Of a stretch of DNA of 43,333 bases, positions 10,916-28,081 are shown in pieces (position 1 is the first letter of the stretch; each line of letters starts with the position of its first letter). The notes under the pieces are model-generated. The model saw only the letters and a list, made by a program, of their open reading frames with translations, had not been told where the DNA came from and did not search any database. Source of the DNA: Candidatus Pacearchaeota archaeon (lineage in GTDB: Archaea; Nanobdellota; Nanobdellia; Pacearchaeales; GW2011-AR1); assembly GCA_016867035.1 (NCBI GenBank), contig VGKO01000004.1, positions 1-43,333 of the forward strand, given 5' to 3'. Position numbers and translations under genes: made by a program.

Positions 10916-11476
10916 ATGAATGCAAGAGAGAAACTTTTCAGAGATTGGACAAAACTAGATTGGGACGAGTACTATATGGCTCAGACTTTTTTAATAGCCA
11001 TGCGATCGCCTGATCCTGCTACTAAACAAGGTTGTTATGCTGTAGGCCCAAATCATGAGCCCCTTAGCATGGGTTATAATGCTCCGCCAAGAGGATGTTT
11101 AGATTCAGAAATTCCTTTAACAAGACCTGAAAAATATCCTTTCTTTTTACATGCAGAAGAAAACACAATTGGTAATTCAGCAAGAAGAGGAATTGCTTTG
11201 GAGGGCTCGACTTTTTATATAACCGGGCATCCTTGCGCAAGATGTTTCAGAAATATTCTACAAGTTGGAGCAAGAAGAGTTGTTTATGGACCTGTTACTT
11301 CAAATAAGCAATGCGTCTCCCCTGAAGACCTGAAAGCAATTGAATTAATGCTTAAAGGTAGAAAAGATTTTTCTTTAGAAGATTTTAAACGCGATGGGAA
11401 AAAAGCAGCAAGAATCATGCAAATGGCTATTGATTTATTTAATTTGGAGATGAGAGGGCAACCCCGAGGAGATTAA
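10916..11476 (+). CDS. dCMP/cytidine deaminase-family zinc protein
   Basis: HAEEN...TGHPCARCFRNILQ. Confidence 0.85.
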   Translation: MNAREKLFRDWTKLDWDEYYMAQTFLIAMRSPDPATKQGCYAVGPNHEPLSMGYNAPPRGCLDSEIPLTRPEKYPFFLHAEENTIGNSARRGIALEGSTFYITGHPCARCFRNILQVGARRVVYGPVTSNKQCVSPEDLKAIELMLKGRKDFSLEDFKRDGKKAARIMQMAIDLFNLEMRGQPRGD

Positions 11477-14206: not shown

Positions 14207-15025
14207 TTATTTTTTTGTATTTGTTGGGAGAACATAAAAAACTTCATTATTGAACTCTAGTTTTCTAAATTCAAGTCCAAGTCTTTTTAACATTCTTTCA
14301 AACCAACCTCGATTGCTATAAGTCATGCTTCTGCCACCAAGAGTTTTGGTTGCAAAGCTAACCACCAGATTTTTGGTTTTTTCCCGAGCTTTTTTTATTA
14401 TTTCTTCTCCAAGTTTATGATTATTAATTCCTTCTTCAATTGTATCAATAAACTTAAACATAAAACCCAGGTCAGCTTCTGGGAGATTTTGATAGTTTTT
14501 TATATCTTTTAAATTAATAACAAAAGCTCTTCCTTCTATTCCTCTAATTTTAAAAAAATTATTAATTAGACTTGCGTCTTTTTCATTTATATCGTAGCAA
14601 TAATAAACAAGGGGTTTTTCTATAAAAACCGAGGAGATTGGGTTTAATCCGCAACCAAAATCTATTATAGCTCTTGGTTTACCCGTAATCTGAAATATTT
14701 TTTCATACAAATCCTCATAGAACTCGAGTCTTTCTTTGGTAGAGCGATTACTAGCAAGTATTTTTTTAATTAAATCTAGGTTTTTAGGATCTTTTTTTAA
14801 TTCTTCTAAGTAATCAGTTTTTTTACTATCTTTAATAAGAGAAAAGGTTGCATGTTTTTTGTGAAGCTTGGATTTTATCTGTTTTAAGATATTTTTTTCT
14901 TTTAATTCCTTCCAATTCACATTCTTCTTAATAAACTCTGCAATTTCTAATTCAATTACTTCTTTCGAGATATTTTTGTACTTCTTGCTTTTCTTTATAT
15001 TCTCAAGAATATGCTGGTGATTCAT
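14207..15025 (-). CDS. ArmA/Kgm (FmrO)-family 16S rRNA (guanine-N7)-methyltransferase-like protein
   Basis: KSKKYKNISKEVIELEI, NRSTKERLEFYEDLYEKIF, AIIDFGCGLNPIS, YYCYDINEKDASLIN, LVVSFATKTLGGRSMTYSNRGWFERML align by eye with the remembered ArmA sequence (SKKYENLDSDIVEKV, HSSTNERVATLNDFYTYVF, SILDFGCGFNPLA, YHAYDIDRAEIAFLSS, FVISFPIKSLSGKEKG..WFES). Confidence 0.82.
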   Translation of the reverse strand: MNHQHILENIKKSKKYKNISKEVIELEIAEFIKKNVNWKELKEKNILKQIKSKLHKKHATFSLIKDSKKTDYLEELKKDPKNLDLIKKILASNRSTKERLEFYEDLYEKIFQITGKPRAIIDFGCGLNPISSVFIEKPLVYYCYDINEKDASLINNFFKIRGIEGRAFVINLKDIKNYQNLPEADLGFMFKFIDTIEEGINNHKLGEEIIKKAREKTKNLVVSFATKTLGGRSMTYSNRGWFERMLKRLGLEFRKLEFNNEVFYVLPTNTKK

Positions 15026-15110: not shown

Positions 15111-16055
15111 TTGTCTAAAAGGTATGGACTTATGGGAGAAGAGGAACAAAACGAAACTTATTTAACTAAAAGGCCAACTGTGGAAGCAGCAGAAGCTATT
15201 TTATTCAAACCATTTAAATGTCTTGACCATGGTTTTGTTAGACTTATGGATTATATGGGAAATGATGCGGCAATAGTTCAAGCAGCAAGAGTAAGTTATG
15301 GGAAGGGAACCAAGTCAGTTAGTGATGATAGGGGCTTAATTCGTTATTTACTTAGACATGAACATAATACTCCTCTTGAAATGGTAGAACTGAAGTTTCA
15401 TGCTAAGATGCCAATTTTTGTTGCAAGACAATGGGTTAGGCATAGAACCGCAAGCATCAATGAAATTTCAGGCAGATATTCTATTTTAGATAAAGAATTT
15501 TATGTTCCTGAACCTCAAGTTATAGCAGCCCAATCAACCAGTAATAAACAAGGAAGAGGAGAAGTAGTTACTCCGGAAGAAGCTGAGAGAGTTAGGAGTC
15601 TTATAACTCGCGAATCAGATAGGGCTTATGAAACCTATCAAGATTTGCTAAATGAAAGAGGTGCAGAAGGAATGCCAAAATTGGCTAGAGAATTAGCAAG
15701 AATGAATTTAACTTTAAATTCTTACACACAATGGTATTGGAAAACAGATTTGCATAATTTAATGCATTTTTTAAAATTAAGAACTGATAAACATGCACAA
15801 TATGAAATAAGAGTTTTTGCAGATGTTATGGCTGAAATGACTAAAGCCGTTGCACCTATGGCTTATGAGGCCTTTGAAGATTTTGTTGTTATAGGTAATA
15901 CCCTTAAACTTTCAAGATTAGAGAAAAAGGCACTTGGATTAATACTTGGAGGAAAATCCGCTGAAGAAGCGGCCCTTGCGATTTTCCCAGCTAAAAAAGA
16001 ACCTCTTTCCGGAGAAGGCAAGGAATTTTTAGCGAAGATGAAGGGGCTAGTTTAG
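15111..16055 (+). CDS. thyX: Flavin-dependent thymidylate synthase (TTG start)
   Basis: RHRTASINEISGRYS (ThyX motif RHRxxSxNxxSxRYS). Confidence 0.96.
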   Translation: MSKRYGLMGEEEQNETYLTKRPTVEAAEAILFKPFKCLDHGFVRLMDYMGNDAAIVQAARVSYGKGTKSVSDDRGLIRYLLRHEHNTPLEMVELKFHAKMPIFVARQWVRHRTASINEISGRYSILDKEFYVPEPQVIAAQSTSNKQGRGEVVTPEEAERVRSLITRESDRAYETYQDLLNERGAEGMPKLARELARMNLTLNSYTQWYWKTDLHNLMHFLKLRTDKHAQYEIRVFADVMAEMTKAVAPMAYEAFEDFVVIGNTLKLSRLEKKALGLILGGKSAEEAALAIFPAKKEPLSGEGKEFLAKMKGLV

Positions 16056-16180: not shown

Positions 16181-16819
16181 TTATTTGCTCAATTGTTCTT
16201 GATGGAATTTATCGAAAGCAGGAACAATTTGATTTTCAAAAATATCTATCGGTGAAGGGGTTCCATCAATTATAACTATCCTTCTTCCAGGTAAATCCTT
16301 TAATGCAAGATAATTAGCTCGGAGTTTTTCAATGAATTCTTTACTTTTCTCAAATTTTTGTTCTTCTTGTCTTTTTGCATCTTTTTTCATTCTTTGAATT
16401 GCTACTTCAACAGGAACATCAACTATAAAGGTTAAATCTGGCATCAAAATTCCCTGATGCATTGCAATAAGTTCTTGCACCGGTATTCCTTGAGCTTGTT
16501 GATAAGCAAGAGTGGATAAATCAAATCTGTCTGATATTACATGATGTCCTCTTTCTAGTTTTGGAGCAATTAATTCAGTAACATGTTCTTTTCTATCATT
16601 TACGAAAAGTTCGGCAAGTTTTCTGGCTTGACTATAGGGGTCAGAATCTTGTTTAAGTATTGCTCGAATATCTGCGTTTCTCCAAGGTTCTCTAGTCATA
16701 ACCATATGGGTATACTTGTTTAAATCAAACATATATTTTCCAAGAAGCCAGATTTGTGTACTTTTACCACAACCATCAATACCTTCAAAACTAATAAAAT
16801 ATCCTCTTTTAATCACCAT
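16181..16819 (-). CDS. tmk: Thymidylate kinase
   Basis: FISFEGIDGCGKSTQ, TREPW, DRFDLSTLAYQ. Confidence 0.93.
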   Translation of the reverse strand: MVIKRGYFISFEGIDGCGKSTQIWLLGKYMFDLNKYTHMVMTREPWRNADIRAILKQDSDPYSQARKLAELFVNDRKEHVTELIAPKLERGHHVISDRFDLSTLAYQQAQGIPVQELIAMHQGILMPDLTFIVDVPVEVAIQRMKKDAKRQEEQKFEKSKEFIEKLRANYLALKDLPGRRIVIIDGTPSPIDIFENQIVPAFDKFHQEQLSK

Positions 16820-16920
16820 CAGAAATCAACCATTTTCAGTCTTTATAAATTATTCTGTAGAAAAAAATATATGTTTTTGTTTAAGATGCTATTTAAACTA
16901 TAAAAATGGAAATTGTTATT

Positions 16921-17520
16921 ATGCCAATCGGATTTGATTTAGACGAAGTATTAGCACCACTATTAGAGCATCACTGCCGATTTCTTAGTGAAAAGTACAA
17001 TAAAAAAATTGACCTTCAAACATTTTATTCTTATAATTTCTGGGAACATTATGGAGTATCCAAAGACCAAGCAATAGCGGACTTTTTTGAATTTTATGGA
17101 TCTCCCTTCTTTCAGGATATTAGGCCCTTTCAAGGAGCTAAACAAGAATTAGAACAACTTGCCGAAATAGACGCAATGCACATTATTACTGCTAGACCAA
17201 ATGTTTTGAGACAATCAACTAGAGTTTTTGTAAAAACTTATTTTGACGGTTTATTTCAAAAAATTGATTTTGGAAATCTTTTTGGAAAGTCTGGAAAAAG
17301 CATAGGTAAAAGAGAATTATGTTTCAAAAATGGTATTTGGGTTTTGGTTGAAGATGATCCAAAACATATTGTTCCTGTTTCTAATGATATTCCTGTTGTT
17401 GTTCCAGATAGGCCTTGGAATAAGAATATTCAAGGAAGAAATATTATCAGAGCTTATAGTTGGAAAGATATAGGAAATATAATTAGGGAATTAGCAACTA
17501 ATCCTTCATCTCTATCTTAA
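16921..17520 (+). CDS. HAD-superfamily 5'(3')-deoxyribonucleotidase-like protein
   Basis: IGFDLDEVLAP (DxD), IITARP, VEDDPKHI. MPIGFD is the likelier start than 16906. Confidence 0.75.
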   Translation: MPIGFDLDEVLAPLLEHHCRFLSEKYNKKIDLQTFYSYNFWEHYGVSKDQAIADFFEFYGSPFFQDIRPFQGAKQELEQLAEIDAMHIITARPNVLRQSTRVFVKTYFDGLFQKIDFGNLFGKSGKSIGKRELCFKNGIWVLVEDDPKHIVPVSNDIPVVVPDRPWNKNIQGRNIIRAYSWKDIGNIIRELATNPSSLS

Positions 17521-17806
17521 CATTAACGCTTCTTGGAATTGGAAGCTTCATTATAGAATGTAAAACACTTTCATTTGCAGGTAAATCAATTACTCGCTTG
17601 TGAATTCTCATCTCAAAATTATCAAAAGTAGCTGTTCCGTTTCCGCAAGGTGATTTGCGTGTAGTTATTTTAAATCTTCGAGTAGGTAATGGAATTGGCC
17701 CAGAAATGTTTACGCCTGATTTCTTGGCTAATTCTTTTATTGTTCCACAGATATTATTCAATTCGTTAATATCCAAACTTCCTAATTTGATTCTTACTTT
17801 TGACAT
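17498..17806 (-). CDS. rps10: Small ribosomal subunit protein uS10
   Basis: MSKVRIKLGSLDINELNNICGTIKELAKKSGVNISGPIPLPTRRFKITTRKSPCGNGTATFDNFEMRIHKRVIDL. Confidence 0.95.
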   Translation of the reverse strand: MSKVRIKLGSLDINELNNICGTIKELAKKSGVNISGPIPLPTRRFKITTRKSPCGNGTATFDNFEMRIHKRVIDLPANESVLHSIMKLPIPRSVNVKIEMKD

Positions 17807-17877: not shown

Positions 17878-18870
17878 CTAATACGCAATAGTTTTTGTAA
17901 GATGATGCTTTCCAGGAAGAGCTCGGCCTTCAGACCATAACTTATAATCCAAATGAAGTACATTAATATCCGGCAATCCAGTTTTAGATCTGATTGCATT
18001 AATTGTTTCAAGTAACCATTGAAAAGCATGAATTGTATTAGCTCTTATTTCTAATTCGTCTTGGCTTTTAGCAGGAATAAGTGCTTGAGCATCTACTTTA
18101 GCAGCCAAGGTAGGAGAGTATTGTAATATTCCTAATGCTCTAAGTGCCTTTGGTAATTGATAATCTGCAAAAGCAGTAAGTTCTTTTATTTCTGCTTCTG
18201 GGAAAGAACCAGTGTGATCTGCTAGATATCTACCGTGAAGCTCGCCAGGAAATAACTGGGCTCGCTTATTAAAACAAACTTTTCTTCCCCCAACAACGCA
18301 CGAATCATCAAAAGAAGGAAAATCTGCAACAAGTCTTTCAACTAGTCCCTTACCACAATTAAATAATTTCCAATCACTTTCGTTAGCTAAATTGATAAAT
18401 TGCCCTCCATATCTTTCAGATAAAACTCTTCCAACTTCGTTCCATATCCTTGCTCGCTCCTCAACCATTGGTATTTCAGTATCTTTACAAAAAACACTTC
18501 TAACTTGATCAAGGGTACAATCTTTTAAGAAACGAGGATCAAATATTGGAACACCACTTTCGGTTGCTTGCATTAATGCAGCATACATACCATAAGCACC
18601 CTTCCACTCTTTATCTTTGAATCGTGTCATGTATTTCTCGCCTGTTTTAAAATCAGTAAAAGCAAAATTAATAGTATTGGCTAACATAAAAAATGAAAAT
18701 AATTCTTCAGGGGTTCCATTTGGAAAAACAGGCCCTCGCCAGTCAGGAATAGTAAATGTTAGAGGGGCATAATCTCTTGCAATCTGTATTACTTTTTCTT
18801 GGCTTATTCTAACATTCTCAGAATCTTCTACAATGCCTCTTGTTGAATCTAACACCGGATTTTTTGTCAT
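17878..18870 (-). CDS. Queuosine-salvage nucleosidase homologue (QNG1 / DUF2419)
   Basis: NTINFAF, KYMTRFKDKEWKGAYGMYAALMQATESGVPI, TLDQVRSVFCKDTEIPMVEERARIWNEVGRVLSERYGGQFIN, LTAFADYQLPKALRALGILQYS, ELEIRANTIHAFQWLLETI parallel remembered human QNG1 motifs. Confidence 0.88.
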   Translation of the reverse strand: MTKNPVLDSTRGIVEDSENVRISQEKVIQIARDYAPLTFTIPDWRGPVFPNGTPEELFSFFMLANTINFAFTDFKTGEKYMTRFKDKEWKGAYGMYAALMQATESGVPIFDPRFLKDCTLDQVRSVFCKDTEIPMVEERARIWNEVGRVLSERYGGQFINLANESDWKLFNCGKGLVERLVADFPSFDDSCVVGGRKVCFNKRAQLFPGELHGRYLADHTGSFPEAEIKELTAFADYQLPKALRALGILQYSPTLAAKVDAQALIPAKSQDELEIRANTIHAFQWLLETINAIRSKTGLPDINVLHLDYKLWSEGRALPGKHHLTKTIAY

Positions 18871-18945: not shown

Positions 18946-19710
18946 ATGAAAAACAAAAGGCTAATTATTTTTTTATTAATTATAACCTTGTTATCCCTTC
19001 TATCAGTGTATTACCCCCAACTAACAGGGCAAGCAACAAACAACCAAAATCAAGTTAAAGATTATCTCAAGGAAGAAGCCATTCTTACTCGAGTTATTGA
19101 TGGCGACACAATTAAAGTTATTTTTCCGAGTGAAGGTCAAGAAGAATCAATAAGACTTTTGGGAATAAACACTCCTGAAAAGAAAATGCCGCATGCAAAC
19201 GCTTCAAGTAGTTTTTTAAAAGAGTTTGAGAACAATACAATTTATCTCCTTAGAGATAAAGAAAATACTGACAAGTATAATCGCAAGCTCAGATATTTGT
19301 TTTACGAGGATAGATTTGTTAATTTAGAAATACTTGAAAAAGGATTTGCTAATGCTTATTATTACTCTGATTTAATTTATGAAAAAGAATTATTGCGAGC
19401 AGAAACCCAAGCTCGCGAGCTTGGGCTAGGAATTTGGGAAAAATCGCAAGAAGTTTGTGCTAATTGTATTACTTTAGTTAATTTAAACGCCACTTCTGAA
19501 ACCTTTCTTCTAGAGAACTCGTGTGACTTTAATTGTAAGCTTGAAGGATGGTTTGTTAAAGATGCAGGAAGGAATATTCTTTATTTAAAAGAAATTAAAG
19601 CCAATCAAAAAGAAGTTTTTAACTCTAGCAAGGATGTCTGGAATAACTATGGGGATGCTTTTTTCTTATTTGATAAACAGGGTAAATTAGTATTGTATCA
19701 TAAATACTAA
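18946..19710 (+). CDS. Secreted/membrane-anchored staphylococcal-nuclease-like protein with C-terminal lamin-tail-like domain
   Basis: N-terminal hydrophobic segment, ILTRVIDGDTIKV...IRLLGINTPEK...KYNRKLRYLFY...GLGIWE (SNase) followed by NATSETFLLENSCDFNCKLEGWFVKDAGRNILYL (LTD-like). Confidence 0.82.
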   Translation: MKNKRLIIFLLIITLLSLLSVYYPQLTGQATNNQNQVKDYLKEEAILTRVIDGDTIKVIFPSEGQEESIRLLGINTPEKKMPHANASSSFLKEFENNTIYLLRDKENTDKYNRKLRYLFYEDRFVNLEILEKGFANAYYYSDLIYEKELLRAETQARELGLGIWEKSQEVCANCITLVNLNATSETFLLENSCDFNCKLEGWFVKDAGRNILYLKEIKANQKEVFNSSKDVWNNYGDAFFLFDKQGKLVLYHKY

Positions 19711-23662: not shown

Positions 23663-24403
23663 CTATCTTATCTCGCAACTATATCCCTGTGATTTCATTG
23701 CATCTCGAACTTTAGTCAATATTAAATCCGGAGTTTCCCACATTTCTCTAGGAAGATTATCTTTACTCAAGCTCGGGCCAATCATTTCTTCTTTGGTTCT
23801 AGCAACAAATTTTTGCAAATAATGTCTATGATTATTAGTTCCGGTTGTATTTGAAACCCATTTTACCATTTCAATGGCCTCTTGTTCACTCATCCAACCA
23901 AAGTCACCTTGAAAATCAATTGGCCATAAGGTTGTTCTAAACTCATGTTTTAGGGGGGTAATAACTCGCATACTCCTTTCTATTTGAGTAATATCTACAG
24001 GAATACCTGTAACAAAGGGATAAAGTTCTCTTGAGCCCTTAATATCCATCGCTATATAATCCACAAGTCTTTCTTGAGTAAGTTTTTCAAGCATATCAGG
24101 ATTATTCCCATTTGTGTCTAGTTTTATTTCAAGTCCTGTTTGTTTTTTTAATCTTGCTAGAAAATCCGGCAAGTCTTTATGTATGGTTGGCTCGCCACCA
24201 CAAAGAACTACTCCTTTAACCCAGCGTTTATCATAATCTCTAATATAATCTAAAACTTGTTGCTCTGATATGCCTTGGCTACCTGTAAGTTTTTTAGCAT
24301 GACAAGCAGGACATTTAAAATCACAGCCCATAGTGTATAAGATTAAGCAAGGCTTATTATCAAAATTAATTAAAGAAAAACTTGGAAGTGTTAGAAATTG
24401 CAT
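23663..24403 (-). CDS. nrdG: Anaerobic ribonucleotide reductase activating protein (radical SAM)
   Basis: YTMGCDFKCPACHAKKL (CxxxCxxC), GVVLCGGEPTIHKDL; adjacent to nrdD. Confidence 0.88.
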   Translation of the reverse strand: MQFLTLPSFSLINFDNKPCLILYTMGCDFKCPACHAKKLTGSQGISEQQVLDYIRDYDKRWVKGVVLCGGEPTIHKDLPDFLARLKKQTGLEIKLDTNGNNPDMLEKLTQERLVDYIAMDIKGSRELYPFVTGIPVDITQIERSMRVITPLKHEFRTTLWPIDFQGDFGWMSEQEAIEMVKWVSNTTGTNNHRHYLQKFVARTKEEMIGPSLSKDNLPREMWETPDLILTKVRDAMKSQGYSCEIR

Positions 24404-24465
24404 TTTTATTGTGAGGTTTTTACTTTGGTTATCTACCTAGATTTATTTTATCTAACTTTACATTT

Positions 24466-27400
24466 CTAAACTTGCGCAGGTATTAAATATTTATCTGTAA
24501 TTTTTTTTACTCTTGGAGTAGTTATACCATCCTTAGTAGCTCTTCCACCCTGATAATGTGTGTCAAGCCTTCCAATTTCTCTACCATTCGCATCAAAAAG
24601 AATTACTGCAGGTATTCTTGCAGGATTAACTCCCGCTAATAACATTTTTGTCATGCCTGCTTCTGTATCGCCCTTGTACGTATCTATTACTAGTTCTTGT
24701 CCTGTTGCCTCTCTTACTCGTTTAGCTTCTCGCATTAAAACCTGTCCTGCAGCACTACATAAAGAACAATCGGTTTTTCCAATAATCATTGCGCTTGGAC
24801 TCCCGGCTCTGCCTGTTATTTCTGGAACTCTAAATCCTGTTTCGCTAGCTGGCGCACTAGGATTCATTAAAGAATAATCTCCTTTTCTTCTATCATCTCT
24901 TTCCCCGATTTTTGAATCATTCCAATTTCTAAATTCGCTAAAATATCCGACTATTCTTGACATCGAGGTGAGGGTTTCAGGATCTTGATTTTTGCAACCA
25001 GGGCAAGTATCATGCGAACCTCGGTGGGTTGTTCTACACTTTCTACATATTGTAAATTCAGGGCTTATTGTTACTTGTGCGGATTGGGTATTTCTATAAA
25101 CATTTTCAACTAAATTCAATATTGCTCCTGCCGAGGGTTTTTCTTCACCAACAAAAGCATGAATTATTGCTCCTGATTCAATCGCAGGGTGAAATAAGCT
25201 TTGAGTTCTTATTCTTGTAACTAAGTCAACAGGAGCATCGGCTCGTAAGTGAATACTATTAGTATAGTAAGGTCTATTTCCTTCAATATCGCCTTTAACA
25301 ACTTCTCGAGATTCAGGATAATTTTCTAAATCAATTTTAGCAAATCTTCTTGTTGCAGATTCAGCAGGACTTTCTTCTAAACTGAATTTTAATCCGTGCT
25401 CTTTGCTATAACCCTTTGCTCTAACATTCATGTGACTGATAACTCCAAGTCCATATTTCTCGAATTCTTCTTGAGTAAGTTCATGTAATTCTTTACCTGT
25501 CAGAAACTGTATGGCGTCATTCAACCCAATTATTCCCATAATGTAAGTAGCTTTATCCAAATCAATATAGGGTTTTCCATCGACTCGAGTTGGTTTTGAA
25601 ACAGAGTAGTGTATTTGTCCTGGTCCTGTTGTTTTAGAAATAAAATCTTTTTTTTGTAAATGAGCTTTTAGTGCTAAGTCCATTGTAGCATCTACTTCTT
25701 CCATAAAACCTTCAAGAGTTTTCTTGCCTTTTTTTGCTGCTCTATAAGCTGCTTGAGGTAAGTTAATCGTAACATTTTGGAAACCGCAGAATCTTACTGA
25801 CTCTGGATGGGAAAGTACATAAGGGTCATCTAGGGTTGTTCTTAATCTACAACAAGCCGCGAGTGTTACAGCATCTCTATCAAAAATAAAGTACGGGCTT
25901 CCATTATGGCTTGCAGTTTCACAAGCCTCTTCTAATACTTGGCGTTGCATAGGGTCTTGGAAAGTACTTTCATCGACATGGAAATCGCATTTTGGAAAAG
26001 TAAATAGAGAACCATCTGCATCTCCTGCTTTCCAAGCTCTTAAAAGATTTAGAGCGAATCTACTTACTATTCCATTTTTATGATAATGTTCATAAGTAAT
26101 CATTCTTTCGCCTTGTTGCAAGAATTCTTCTCTTTTTATTGAAGGAACTTCTTTGCCACTTGCAGGATCTTTCCATCTCTCCATTTTTTCACGAGCAACA
26201 ACTCGGCCACTCGAGTCTAAATATTCTGAAAGTCTAAATCCGTTAGGAGTTTCTTCGCCTGTTCTTCTTTCTTCCAAGGTTAGTATTTCTCCATTTCTTT
26301 CAAGCATGTATTTTCCTTTTGGACCAACAGCTAAAGTATTTCTTAAAAATTCAGGAACACCTGCATGAATATTAAAGTCTAAGAAAAGGGTTTGTCCTCC
26401 TCTTGAGAAAGCATTCTGAGAACCATTAAAAATAACTTCTTGAGCTGTTTGATACATAAAAGCATCTATCTCTTCTTCTTTTAATACACTAATCGGATTT
26501 TTCTCAAGCTCTTGAAGTCTTAATTCTTCGTCCCTAATAATAGAATCTAATGCCCTAACATCACTATGAGTTCTCATAGAATCTGCTGCTCTTTTTTGTC
26601 TTTCAACTGCTTCTCGTATAATTCTTATTCTTTTTTTACCTTCTTCTTTTAAATCAGCTTCAATTAAAGGAGCATAAAAAATATTCATGTATCCTATTCC
26701 TAATGCACCAGAATAATAGGTTTGCATACTTGCCAAGAAAGTATTTAGGTGTCCTGTTAATGTGCTTGTGTGTCCTGCGGGTTTAGAAGTTGTTTGCAAA
26801 TTCTCCATTCTCATTCCATCTTTTTTAATATACTCAAGTGAATGTCCTGAACAATAAACCCTATCTACAAGTCCTAAGTCATGCAAATGAATTGCCCCAG
26901 AATTATGTGCTGCAGCTAAGTCAGGAGAAAAAACTTCTGTGAGAGCATATTGTTTACTAATCATTTCCCAAGCATTAAACTCTAATGCTCCAGGATTATT
27001 TGCTCTAATATTACTATTTTCTACGGCTTTAGCAAAAAACATTCTTTCTAAGTCTGATTTGGGTACGCTTAAATCAGTATATTTTCCTGCTGCAACTCCA
27101 AAACCTAATTCGAGCATTTCATGTCTTGCTAACTCGCGAATTAATCGTGTTGTAACTGCTTGCGAGCCAAGATGCACAAGTCTATTCTCGAGTCCTTTAG
27201 CTACGGCTTTAGCATCATCATACCCCAACCCTGCATGAGTAACTAAATCTTCAATAATTCTTTCTCTATGGAAAGGGTGATTTGCTTCTTCTGTAAAAGA
27301 ACTAACCATTAAAAGAGCATCTGTAACATTTCCGCGATCTTTTGAACCTCTAACTCGGATTTGTCTTCTTTGTTCTGAATAACTTTGATACGAGCTAGCT

Positions 27401-27642
27401 ACTCCTTCAAATCCTAAATTTCTTGCTGCAACAGGAACAAGGGCATTAATTTCGTCAACAGTAGGAATTTCTCGTAATCTCCCTTGCTTTAGTAACTTAA
27501 GGGTTTCATCAGTAATTTTTTGTGCATTAGCAGGATCAACTTCTTGTCTTCTACAAGCATAAGAAACTGCAGTAACTATTTTTTCTCTATTAAAAGGAGC
27601 AAGTTTTCCATCTCTTTTTCTAATTACATTAATCCCTGCCAT
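24466..27642 (-). CDS. nrdD: Anaerobic ribonucleoside-triphosphate reductase with N-terminal ATP-cone and fused C-terminal redoxin domain
   Basis: ATP-cone VIRKRDGKLAPFNREKIVTAV; Zn site CRKCRTTHRGSHDTCPGC; glycyl-radical motif RIVGYF; then SAMIIGKTDCSLCSAAGQVLMREAKRV...AGVNPARIPAVILFDANGREIGRLDTHYQGG (Trx/Grx-like). Confidence 0.92.
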   Translation of the reverse strand: MAGINVIRKRDGKLAPFNREKIVTAVSYACRRQEVDPANAQKITDETLKLLKQGRLREIPTVDEINALVPVAARNLGFEGVASSYQSYSEQRRQIRVRGSKDRGNVTDALLMVSSFTEEANHPFHRERIIEDLVTHAGLGYDDAKAVAKGLENRLVHLGSQAVTTRLIRELARHEMLELGFGVAAGKYTDLSVPKSDLERMFFAKAVENSNIRANNPGALEFNAWEMISKQYALTEVFSPDLAAAHNSGAIHLHDLGLVDRVYCSGHSLEYIKKDGMRMENLQTTSKPAGHTSTLTGHLNTFLASMQTYYSGALGIGYMNIFYAPLIEADLKEEGKKRIRIIREAVERQKRAADSMRTHSDVRALDSIIRDEELRLQELEKNPISVLKEEEIDAFMYQTAQEVIFNGSQNAFSRGGQTLFLDFNIHAGVPEFLRNTLAVGPKGKYMLERNGEILTLEERRTGEETPNGFRLSEYLDSSGRVVAREKMERWKDPASGKEVPSIKREEFLQQGERMITYEHYHKNGIVSRFALNLLRAWKAGDADGSLFTFPKCDFHVDESTFQDPMQRQVLEEACETASHNGSPYFIFDRDAVTLAACCRLRTTLDDPYVLSHPESVRFCGFQNVTINLPQAAYRAAKKGKKTLEGFMEEVDATMDLALKAHLQKKDFISKTTGPGQIHYSVSKPTRVDGKPYIDLDKATYIMGIIGLNDAIQFLTGKELHELTQEEFEKYGLGVISHMNVRAKGYSKEHGLKFSLEESPAESATRRFAKIDLENYPESREVVKGDIEGNRPYYTNSIHLRADAPVDLVTRIRTQSLFHPAIESGAIIHAFVGEEKPSAGAILNLVENVYRNTQSAQVTISPEFTICRKCRTTHRGSHDTCPGCKNQDPETLTSMSRIVGYFSEFRNWNDSKIGERDDRRKGDYSLMNPSAPASETGFRVPEITGRAGSPSAMIIGKTDCSLCSAAGQVLMREAKRVREATGQELVIDTYKGDTEAGMTKMLLAGVNPARIPAVILFDANGREIGRLDTHYQGGRATKDGITTPRVKKITDKYLIPAQV

Positions 27643-27643
27643 T

Positions 27644-28081
27644 TTATAATTCTTTTAACTCCTTTTTAAAATCTCCAATATCCTTGAAATCTCGGTATAC
27701 AGAAGCAAATCTTATGTAAGCAACTTTATCGACTTTTTTTAAGGCTTTCATAACTAACTCGCCGATTGTTTCAGCTTTTATCTCTTTTTTATTAGAACTC
27801 GAGATTTTATTTTCTATATCATACACAACGCGGTCAATTTGCTCCAAGCTTATTGGCCTCTTTTCACAAGCTCTAAGAATACCTTTCTTTATTTTTTCTA
27901 TATCAAAAGTTTGTCTTGTGCCATCTTTTTTTATAACTCGCAAATCTGCAATCTCAAGTCTTTCATAGGTTGTAAAACGTTTTTTGCATTTCAAACATTC
28001 GCGCCTTCTCTTAGTTTCACCAGAATTATCTCTTTTGTTAGTTACTTTCGTTTCTTTATGATTACAGAATGGACAATACAT
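27644..28081 (-). CDS. nrdR: NrdR transcriptional repressor
   Basis: MYCPFCNHKETKVTNKRDN...RRRECLKCKKRFTTYERLE zinc ribbon plus ATP-cone VIKKDGTRQTFDIEKIKKGI. Confidence 0.95.
   Translation of the reverse strand: MYCPFCNHKETKVTNKRDNSGETKRRRECLKCKKRFTTYERLEIADLRVIKKDGTRQTFDIEKIKKGILRACEKRPISLEQIDRVVYDIENKISSSNKKEIKAETIGELVMKALKKVDKVAYIRFASVYRDFKDIGDFKKELKEL

Follow-up and report, generated by a model that had tools for sequence, protein, structure and literature searches.

A Qng1 homologue and a single bacterial-type TGT in a Pacearchaeota genome: possible salvage of a queuosine-type base

Introduction

What does a homologue of Qng1, the queuosine-nucleotide N-glycosidase, do in an archaeon? 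The question is raised by a 43,333-nucleotide stretch of DNA from a Candidatus Pacearchaeota archaeon. This stretch, referred to below as the window, is the entire contig C4 of a 751-kb genome that is 94.6% complete and 2.4% contaminated (features in Table 1). A sequence-only reading of the window had recognised the gene by its near-collinear match to sequence blocks of human QNG1. It took as its premise that archaeal tRNAs carry archaeosine and not queuosine, and proposed that the archaeon salvages queuosine (Q) from a host or community, that it recycles another 7-deazaguanine, or that the substrate has changed. Qng1 is so far known solely to release queuine from Q or from queuosine-5'-monophosphate (Q-MP) (PMC11130926).

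Queuosine-type genes as such are already known in DPANN archaea, as bacterial QueA/QueH/Tgt have been described in some DPANN genomes (Castelle et al. 2021, PMC8204110), and the interest of an archaeal Qng1 lies in its setting. The main text of that paper makes no mention of salvage, DUF2419 or PF10343, and the part of the open-licence literature covered by our search holds no report of Qng1 in archaea.

Table 1. Location of the genes discussed in the text (positions in the window, except for tgt)
Feature	Location	Strand	Description
qng1	17878..18870	minus	330 aa, ATG start; Qng1/DUF2419 queuosine-nucleotide N-glycosidase homologue (PF10343)
rps10 (uS10)	17498..17806	minus	directly downstream of qng1; PF00338; TIGR01046 uS10_euk_arch 128 bits, cut-off 96
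NT5C-type 5'-nucleotidase	16906..17520	plus	converges with rps10; PF06941 50 bits
SNase-like nuclease	18946..19710	plus	divergent from qng1; PF00565 59 bits
FmrO/Rmt-kind 16S rRNA (guanine1405-N7)-methyltransferase	14207-15025	minus	PF07091 65 bits
Deoxynucleotide gene set	504-1040, 10916-11476, 15111-16055, 16181-16819, 23663-28081		window
tgt	L011:1471-2673 (contig C6)		bacterial-type (G34) TGT, 400 aa; PF01702, TIGR00430

Results and Discussion

The window protein is a full-length Qng1

The Q_salvage profile (PF10343) matches the window protein well beyond chance (212 bits, cut-off 25, E=1.5e-62, profile positions 4-283 of 285), and all of the blocks quoted in the sequence-only reading are present, so that its identification as a QNG1 homologue is borne out. 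The protein is the sole PF10343 match of its genome in a profile search. All of its sequence matches in the PDB are Qng1/DUF2419 proteins: a phmmer search aligned residues 6-330 with S. thermophilus Qng1 (7uk3/7u07, E=2e-50) and residues 8-313 with human QNG1 (7ugk, E=5e-41). An AF2 model, predicted from eight archaeal Qng1 sequences, has a pLDDT of 87.5. When compared with the PDB by Foldseek, the model retrieved Qng1 entries only at E<0.001; the top 11 matches are all Qng1 (TM 0.83-0.90), with TM values of 0.85-0.90 for 7u07/7u1o/7ulc/7uk3/7u91. The window protein thus shares full-length homology and the same predicted fold with the Qng1 structures 7U07, 7U91 and 7ULC of S. thermophilus and 7UGK of human.

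The active site of Qng1 is marked by two mutants in the PDB, K199C (7u5a) and D231N (7ulc, with queuosine-5'-monophosphate). K202 (in KRAQ) and D236 (in FADY) of the window protein align one to one with K199 and D231 of S. thermophilus Qng1, and this Lys/Asp pair is invariant in the aligned archaeal Qng1 proteins (8 out of 8). The comparison with QNG1 structures that the earlier reading had suggested therefore finds the Lys/Asp pair kept, and the C-terminal Tyr is conserved as well. We conclude that the window protein is a real, apparently intact full-length member of the Qng1 family. The retention of the catalytic and other invariant residues argues for an unchanged reaction, and the activity and substrate ascribed to the archaeal Qng1 below are predictions from this resemblance. 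Unlike the Qng1 proteins of known structure it has an archaeal host, and its branch in the tree is distinct from that of S. thermophilus Qng1 and from those of most Qng1 proteins found elsewhere in the order.

Archaeal residence of the gene

Both Qng1 and the Q-type TGT described below are of bacterial or eukaryotic kind, and a Qng1 relative was found in a Nealsonbacteria genome, so one may ask whether the contig is a bacterial contaminant, or the gene a recent chance transfer without function. The neighbourhood speaks strongly against this. The S10 protein encoded next to qng1 matches the archaeal/eukaryotic model, and the gene of archaeal IF-2 (aIF-2) is situated at the beginning of the contig. 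The likely start of rps10, at 17806, gives a protein of 102 aa, as in two other archaeal genomes, G001 (same genus) and G038, where S10 is 94% and 69% identical, respectively. The rps10-qng1-nuclease neighbourhood is found in both of these genomes. In G038 the SNase-like nuclease adjoins qng1 as it does here; in G001 one small ORF intervenes, and rps10 is separated from qng1 by two additional ORFs. Genome size and the archaeal markers suggest a lineage of the DPANN (Nanoarchaeota-type) archaea. The Qng1 orthologues are intact and 54% (G001) and 51% identical. The base composition of qng1 (GC 0.36, GC3 0.20) is inside the range of the neighbouring genes, and 37 out of 380 genomes sampled across the phylum have a PF10343 match that exceeds the cut-off. 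Given the archaeal markers, the synteny, the composition and the spread in the phylum, contamination is rejected for practical purposes, and we regard this whole explanation, chance transfer included, as very improbable. The sequence-only reading was right to place the gene in an archaeon, and neither loss of catalytic residues nor contamination of the contig, which it had named as findings that would overturn it, was encountered.

A single-protein scan of genome contigs returned no Qng1 relatives, and an alignment scan returned three relatives only. A viral or phage origin of qng1 was also considered and rejected, as there were no relatives among viral contigs or phage records.

Two further neighbours deserve a comment. 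The NT5C-type 5'-nucleotidase is present in the same neighbourhood of G001 (56% identity) and could dephosphorylate nucleotides of the same pool. The SNase-like nuclease has a hydrophobic N-terminus and is probably exported or membrane-anchored.

The only TGT of the genome is of the bacterial type

A PF01702 search detected one TGT only in the genome. Its gene is not a neighbour of qng1; it is located on another contig, C6, where it is flanked by archaeal PheT, Kae1, L7Ae and S28e genes. The protein scores 414.6 bits with the G34 (queuosine) model TIGR00430 (cut-off 306.75), as opposed to 157.3 bits, below the cut-off of 350, with the G15 (archaeosine) model TIGR00432. Among PDB entries it is closest to 2ash (E=7e-93), which we take to be the T. 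maritima TGT, while the match to archaeosine TGT has E=2e-25. The TDSGGFQ and MFDS motifs, presumably bearing the catalytic Asp residues, and the presumed zinc motif CxCxxC...H are all present, and D108, D286, D289, C327, C329, C332 and H358 occupy invariant columns of the TGT alignment (A2).

The sequence-only reading had suggested a search for tgt or arcTGT. The former was found, in its bacterial form, and the genome search gave no second TGT match that could be an archaeosine-type (G15) enzyme. Since the sole TGT is Q-type, archaeosine is not expected in this archaeon, which has in this TGT an enzyme that could make use of a queuosine-type base. The premise that archaeal tRNAs have archaeosine and not queuosine fails here, and the apparent paradox largely dissolves for this genome.

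The other components of queuosine metabolism form a salvage profile. Neither QueA (PF02547) nor QueC was found in the genome at its 94.6% completeness; QueC was counted above about 80 bits only, as the search was noisy, the noise probably coming from general ATP-pyrophosphatases. The QPTR/YhhQ transporter (PF02592) and the ECF family PF12822 (QueT/QrtT) were not found in the genome either, so the QueT-like transporter that the earlier reading had proposed to look for did not turn up. Many bacterial salvagers are likewise without known transporters (PMC11130926). Apart from tRNAs, neither the window nor the surroundings of tgt gave an Rfam match, and no preQ1 riboswitch was found. Two radical-SAM genes of the window were also scanned; the models used identify one as NrdG2 and the other as a TIGR04084 protein, and neither as a queuosine enzyme. 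According to rules developed for bacteria, a genome with a TGT and a salvage gene that lacks QueA is a base salvager (PMC11130926), and by these rules the present genome, with TGT and Qng1, would be one.

The explanation that we prefer, with about even confidence, is that Qng1 and the single bacterial-type TGT serve to scavenge queuine or a related base from neighbouring cells. Nucleotides or bases from the tRNA turnover of these cells would be taken up, and Qng1, an N-glycosidase with a DNA-glycosylase fold, would hydrolyse the N-glycosidic bond of Q-5'-MP (or of a closely related 7-deazaguanosine 5'-phosphate) to give the free 7-deazaguanine base and ribose-5-phosphate. The TGT would then insert the freed base, presumably at G34 of tRNAs with GUN anticodons. 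Family membership, catalytic residues, archaeal residence, the Q-type TGT as the only TGT and the lack of a match for QueA, QueC, QPTR and PF12822 are the observed parts of this explanation; we infer that the protein is active and on what substrate, how the nucleotides enter the cell, which tRNAs are modified and with which base. Salvage of Q from a host or community, as envisaged in the sequence-only reading, has gained a plausible acceptor in the Q-type TGT; it is weakened by the missing known transporter and by a TGT pocket without the queuine motif.

The base pocket of the TGT

In queuine-salvaging TGTs the pocket motif is typically GG[LS][AS]G (PMC11570991), and the opening of position 233 is thought to be necessary for queuine; replacement of Val233 by Gly makes room for its ring (PMC3660597). 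The C6 TGT has the pocket sequences IGGLALGES (GGLALG) and LDTMP, with Met in place of Cys158 and Leu in place of Val233. Both pocket-lining residues are bulky and the q-type motif is not matched, so that insertion of queuine by this TGT is a prediction against the motif rule. A simple queuine-to-TGT route is hence not confirmed, and the inserted base, to judge from the pocket, may be queuine, preQ1, preQ0 or another one. The rule is not absolute, since the preQ1-type TGT of Bartonella accepts queuine as well if the concentration is high (PMC11570991), a case which by analogy shows that the rule can be bent.

Thirty-six sampled TGTs of the order, our own among them, form one clade (support 100/100), and QueA was not found in any sampled genome of this clade. 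QueC is present in some of its members (G016, G027, G031 and G052), and so is QPTR (G016, G031 and G038). These data bear on the possibility that the base inserted by the TGT is a smaller one, preQ1 or preQ0, either freed from its nucleotide by Qng1 or, as preQ1, cut from queuine by an unrecognised lyase. The tRNA would stop at preQ1/preQ0 because QueA is absent. The bulky Leu (position 233) and Met (position 158) of a fully supported archaeal clade without QueA fit this idea, as do the QueC and QPTR genes of the members listed, and in Bartonella a TGT with preQ1-type pocket and no QueA goes together with trace preQ1 in tRNA (PMC11570991). However, no QueC or preQ0/preQ1 transporter was found in our own genome, and release of queuine is the one activity reported for Qng1. 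We consider the smaller base rather unlikely. For the sequence-only suggestion of another 7-deazaguanine the evidence is split in the same way, the pocket speaking for it and the known specificity of Qng1 against it.

Combining these elements, we tentatively speculate, with more doubt than confidence, that in the 36-member clade a bacterial-derived TGT with reshaped pocket introduces a 7-deazaguanine at some position of the tRNA, archaeosine being replaced altogether, and that our own clade would get this base through the action of Qng1 on scavenged nucleotides, the wobble base then coming from other organisms as in animals.

In most of the 36-member clade the pocket reads GG[LF][AG][LM]G, Met stands in for Cys158, and the Arg of PTRNAR is replaced by Gln, Met or Lys. 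GGLAVG and PTRNAR are kept in the TGTs of genus g28 (G028, G216, G217), which have QueA near the TGT gene, and a third set (G025, G095, G192, G212, G213, G222) has a shortened GG-[SA][LW]G loop. In related archaea, a second divergent group with GG[WF]P pockets (L027-L030, L101, L102, from G077, G022, G024, G012, G148 and G151) forms its own branch in the tree, separate from the other non-archaeosine TGTs. In G015, G016 and G031 (L114, L115, L117) a QueC-like gene occurs close to a conserved gene of the 'SYNEP' family, which by eye resembles a glycosyltransferase, and in G015 and G031 a QPTR/YhhQ transporter gene lies beside this pair.

Co-occurrence of Qng1 and TGT

Qng1 was detected in 15 of the 207 genomes of the order, and a TGT above cut-off in 55. 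A TGT is present in 7 out of 15 Qng1-positive genomes and in 48 out of the 192 others (one-sided Fisher p=0.07, a test that ignores relatedness), so the association across the order is weak. The Qng1 proteins fall into at least two groups in the tree. One contains S. thermophilus Qng1 and is of mixed TGT status; the other contains the Qng1 of our genome (G000), which forms a clade (98/97) with those of G001 and G038. All three of these genomes have a TGT, and in the TGT tree the three enzymes likewise group together (100/96). The functional link between Qng1 and TGT is therefore well supported in this three-genome clade and unproven generally.

The remaining 8 of the 15 Qng1-positive genomes have no TGT match, which is more than should be expected from MAG incompleteness (roughly 75-90% complete) if the pair were obligatory. 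Qng1 might then be untied to tRNA modification and clean up or recycle unusual nucleotides from RNA that the cell has scavenged, with ribose-5-phosphate and a waste base as products. The wealth of genes for nucleotide metabolism in the window is in keeping with such a role. On the other hand, all three genomes of our own Qng1 clade keep both qng1 and tgt, and the catalytic and other invariant residues are conserved; nucleotide clean-up therefore seems to us an unlikely account of the present gene.

In G060 (L048:12724-14327), a genome with no TGT match, the gene of a Qng1 homologue is directly downstream of a cytidine/deoxycytidylate deaminase-like gene (by eye). The PF10343 proteins of G076 and G087 (L009, L010) are very divergent (77 and 27 bits, respectively), and no TGT was found in these genomes, which are 99-100% complete; the two proteins are possibly a paralogous nucleosidase.

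Comparison with known systems

Three known systems can be set beside our scavenging explanation. Firstly, in the direct queuine salvage of eukaryotes and Chlamydia trachomatis a nucleosidase, or free q, supplies a q-specific TGT. Our genome resembles this arrangement with its Q-type TGT and Qng1 and with no QueA or QueC found, and differs from it in the TGT pocket, which is not q-type, in that no QPTR was found, and in the presence of one PF01702 protein only, meaning that there is no second TGT subunit. Secondly, the preQ1/q salvage of Bartonella henselae (PMC11570991) has in common with our genome a bacterial TGT, a pocket other than the q-type and no QueA, while here the motif is GGLALG with Met at position 158, Qng1 is present and QPTR was not found. 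Thirdly, the DPANN synthesis genes of Castelle et al. 2021 (PMC8204110) share with our data the bacterial-type TGT, and QueA lies near TGT in genus g28, whereas our own genome has a salvage gene and QueA was not found in it.

If the scavenging explanation is true, some DPANN archaea have abandoned archaeosine and rely on other organisms for a tRNA base, as animals and a few intracellular bacteria are known to do. Queuosine-type tRNA would then extend to the third domain of life, and there would be a molecular way into the question of what ultra-small archaea obtain from their partners. The TGT clade with the Leu/Met pocket is, in addition, a natural test of what sets the base specificity of TGT.

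Other genes in the window

The contig carries a rich set of deoxynucleotide genes, namely dCTP deaminase, a dCMP deaminase-like gene, ThyX, thymidylate kinase, NrdD, NrdG2 and NrdR. The methyltransferase of the FmrO/Rmt kind scores 134 bits with NF000466, below the cut-off of 250; it is a relative of the aminoglycoside-resistance methylases in an archaeon, and a 43% identical copy is present in G001.
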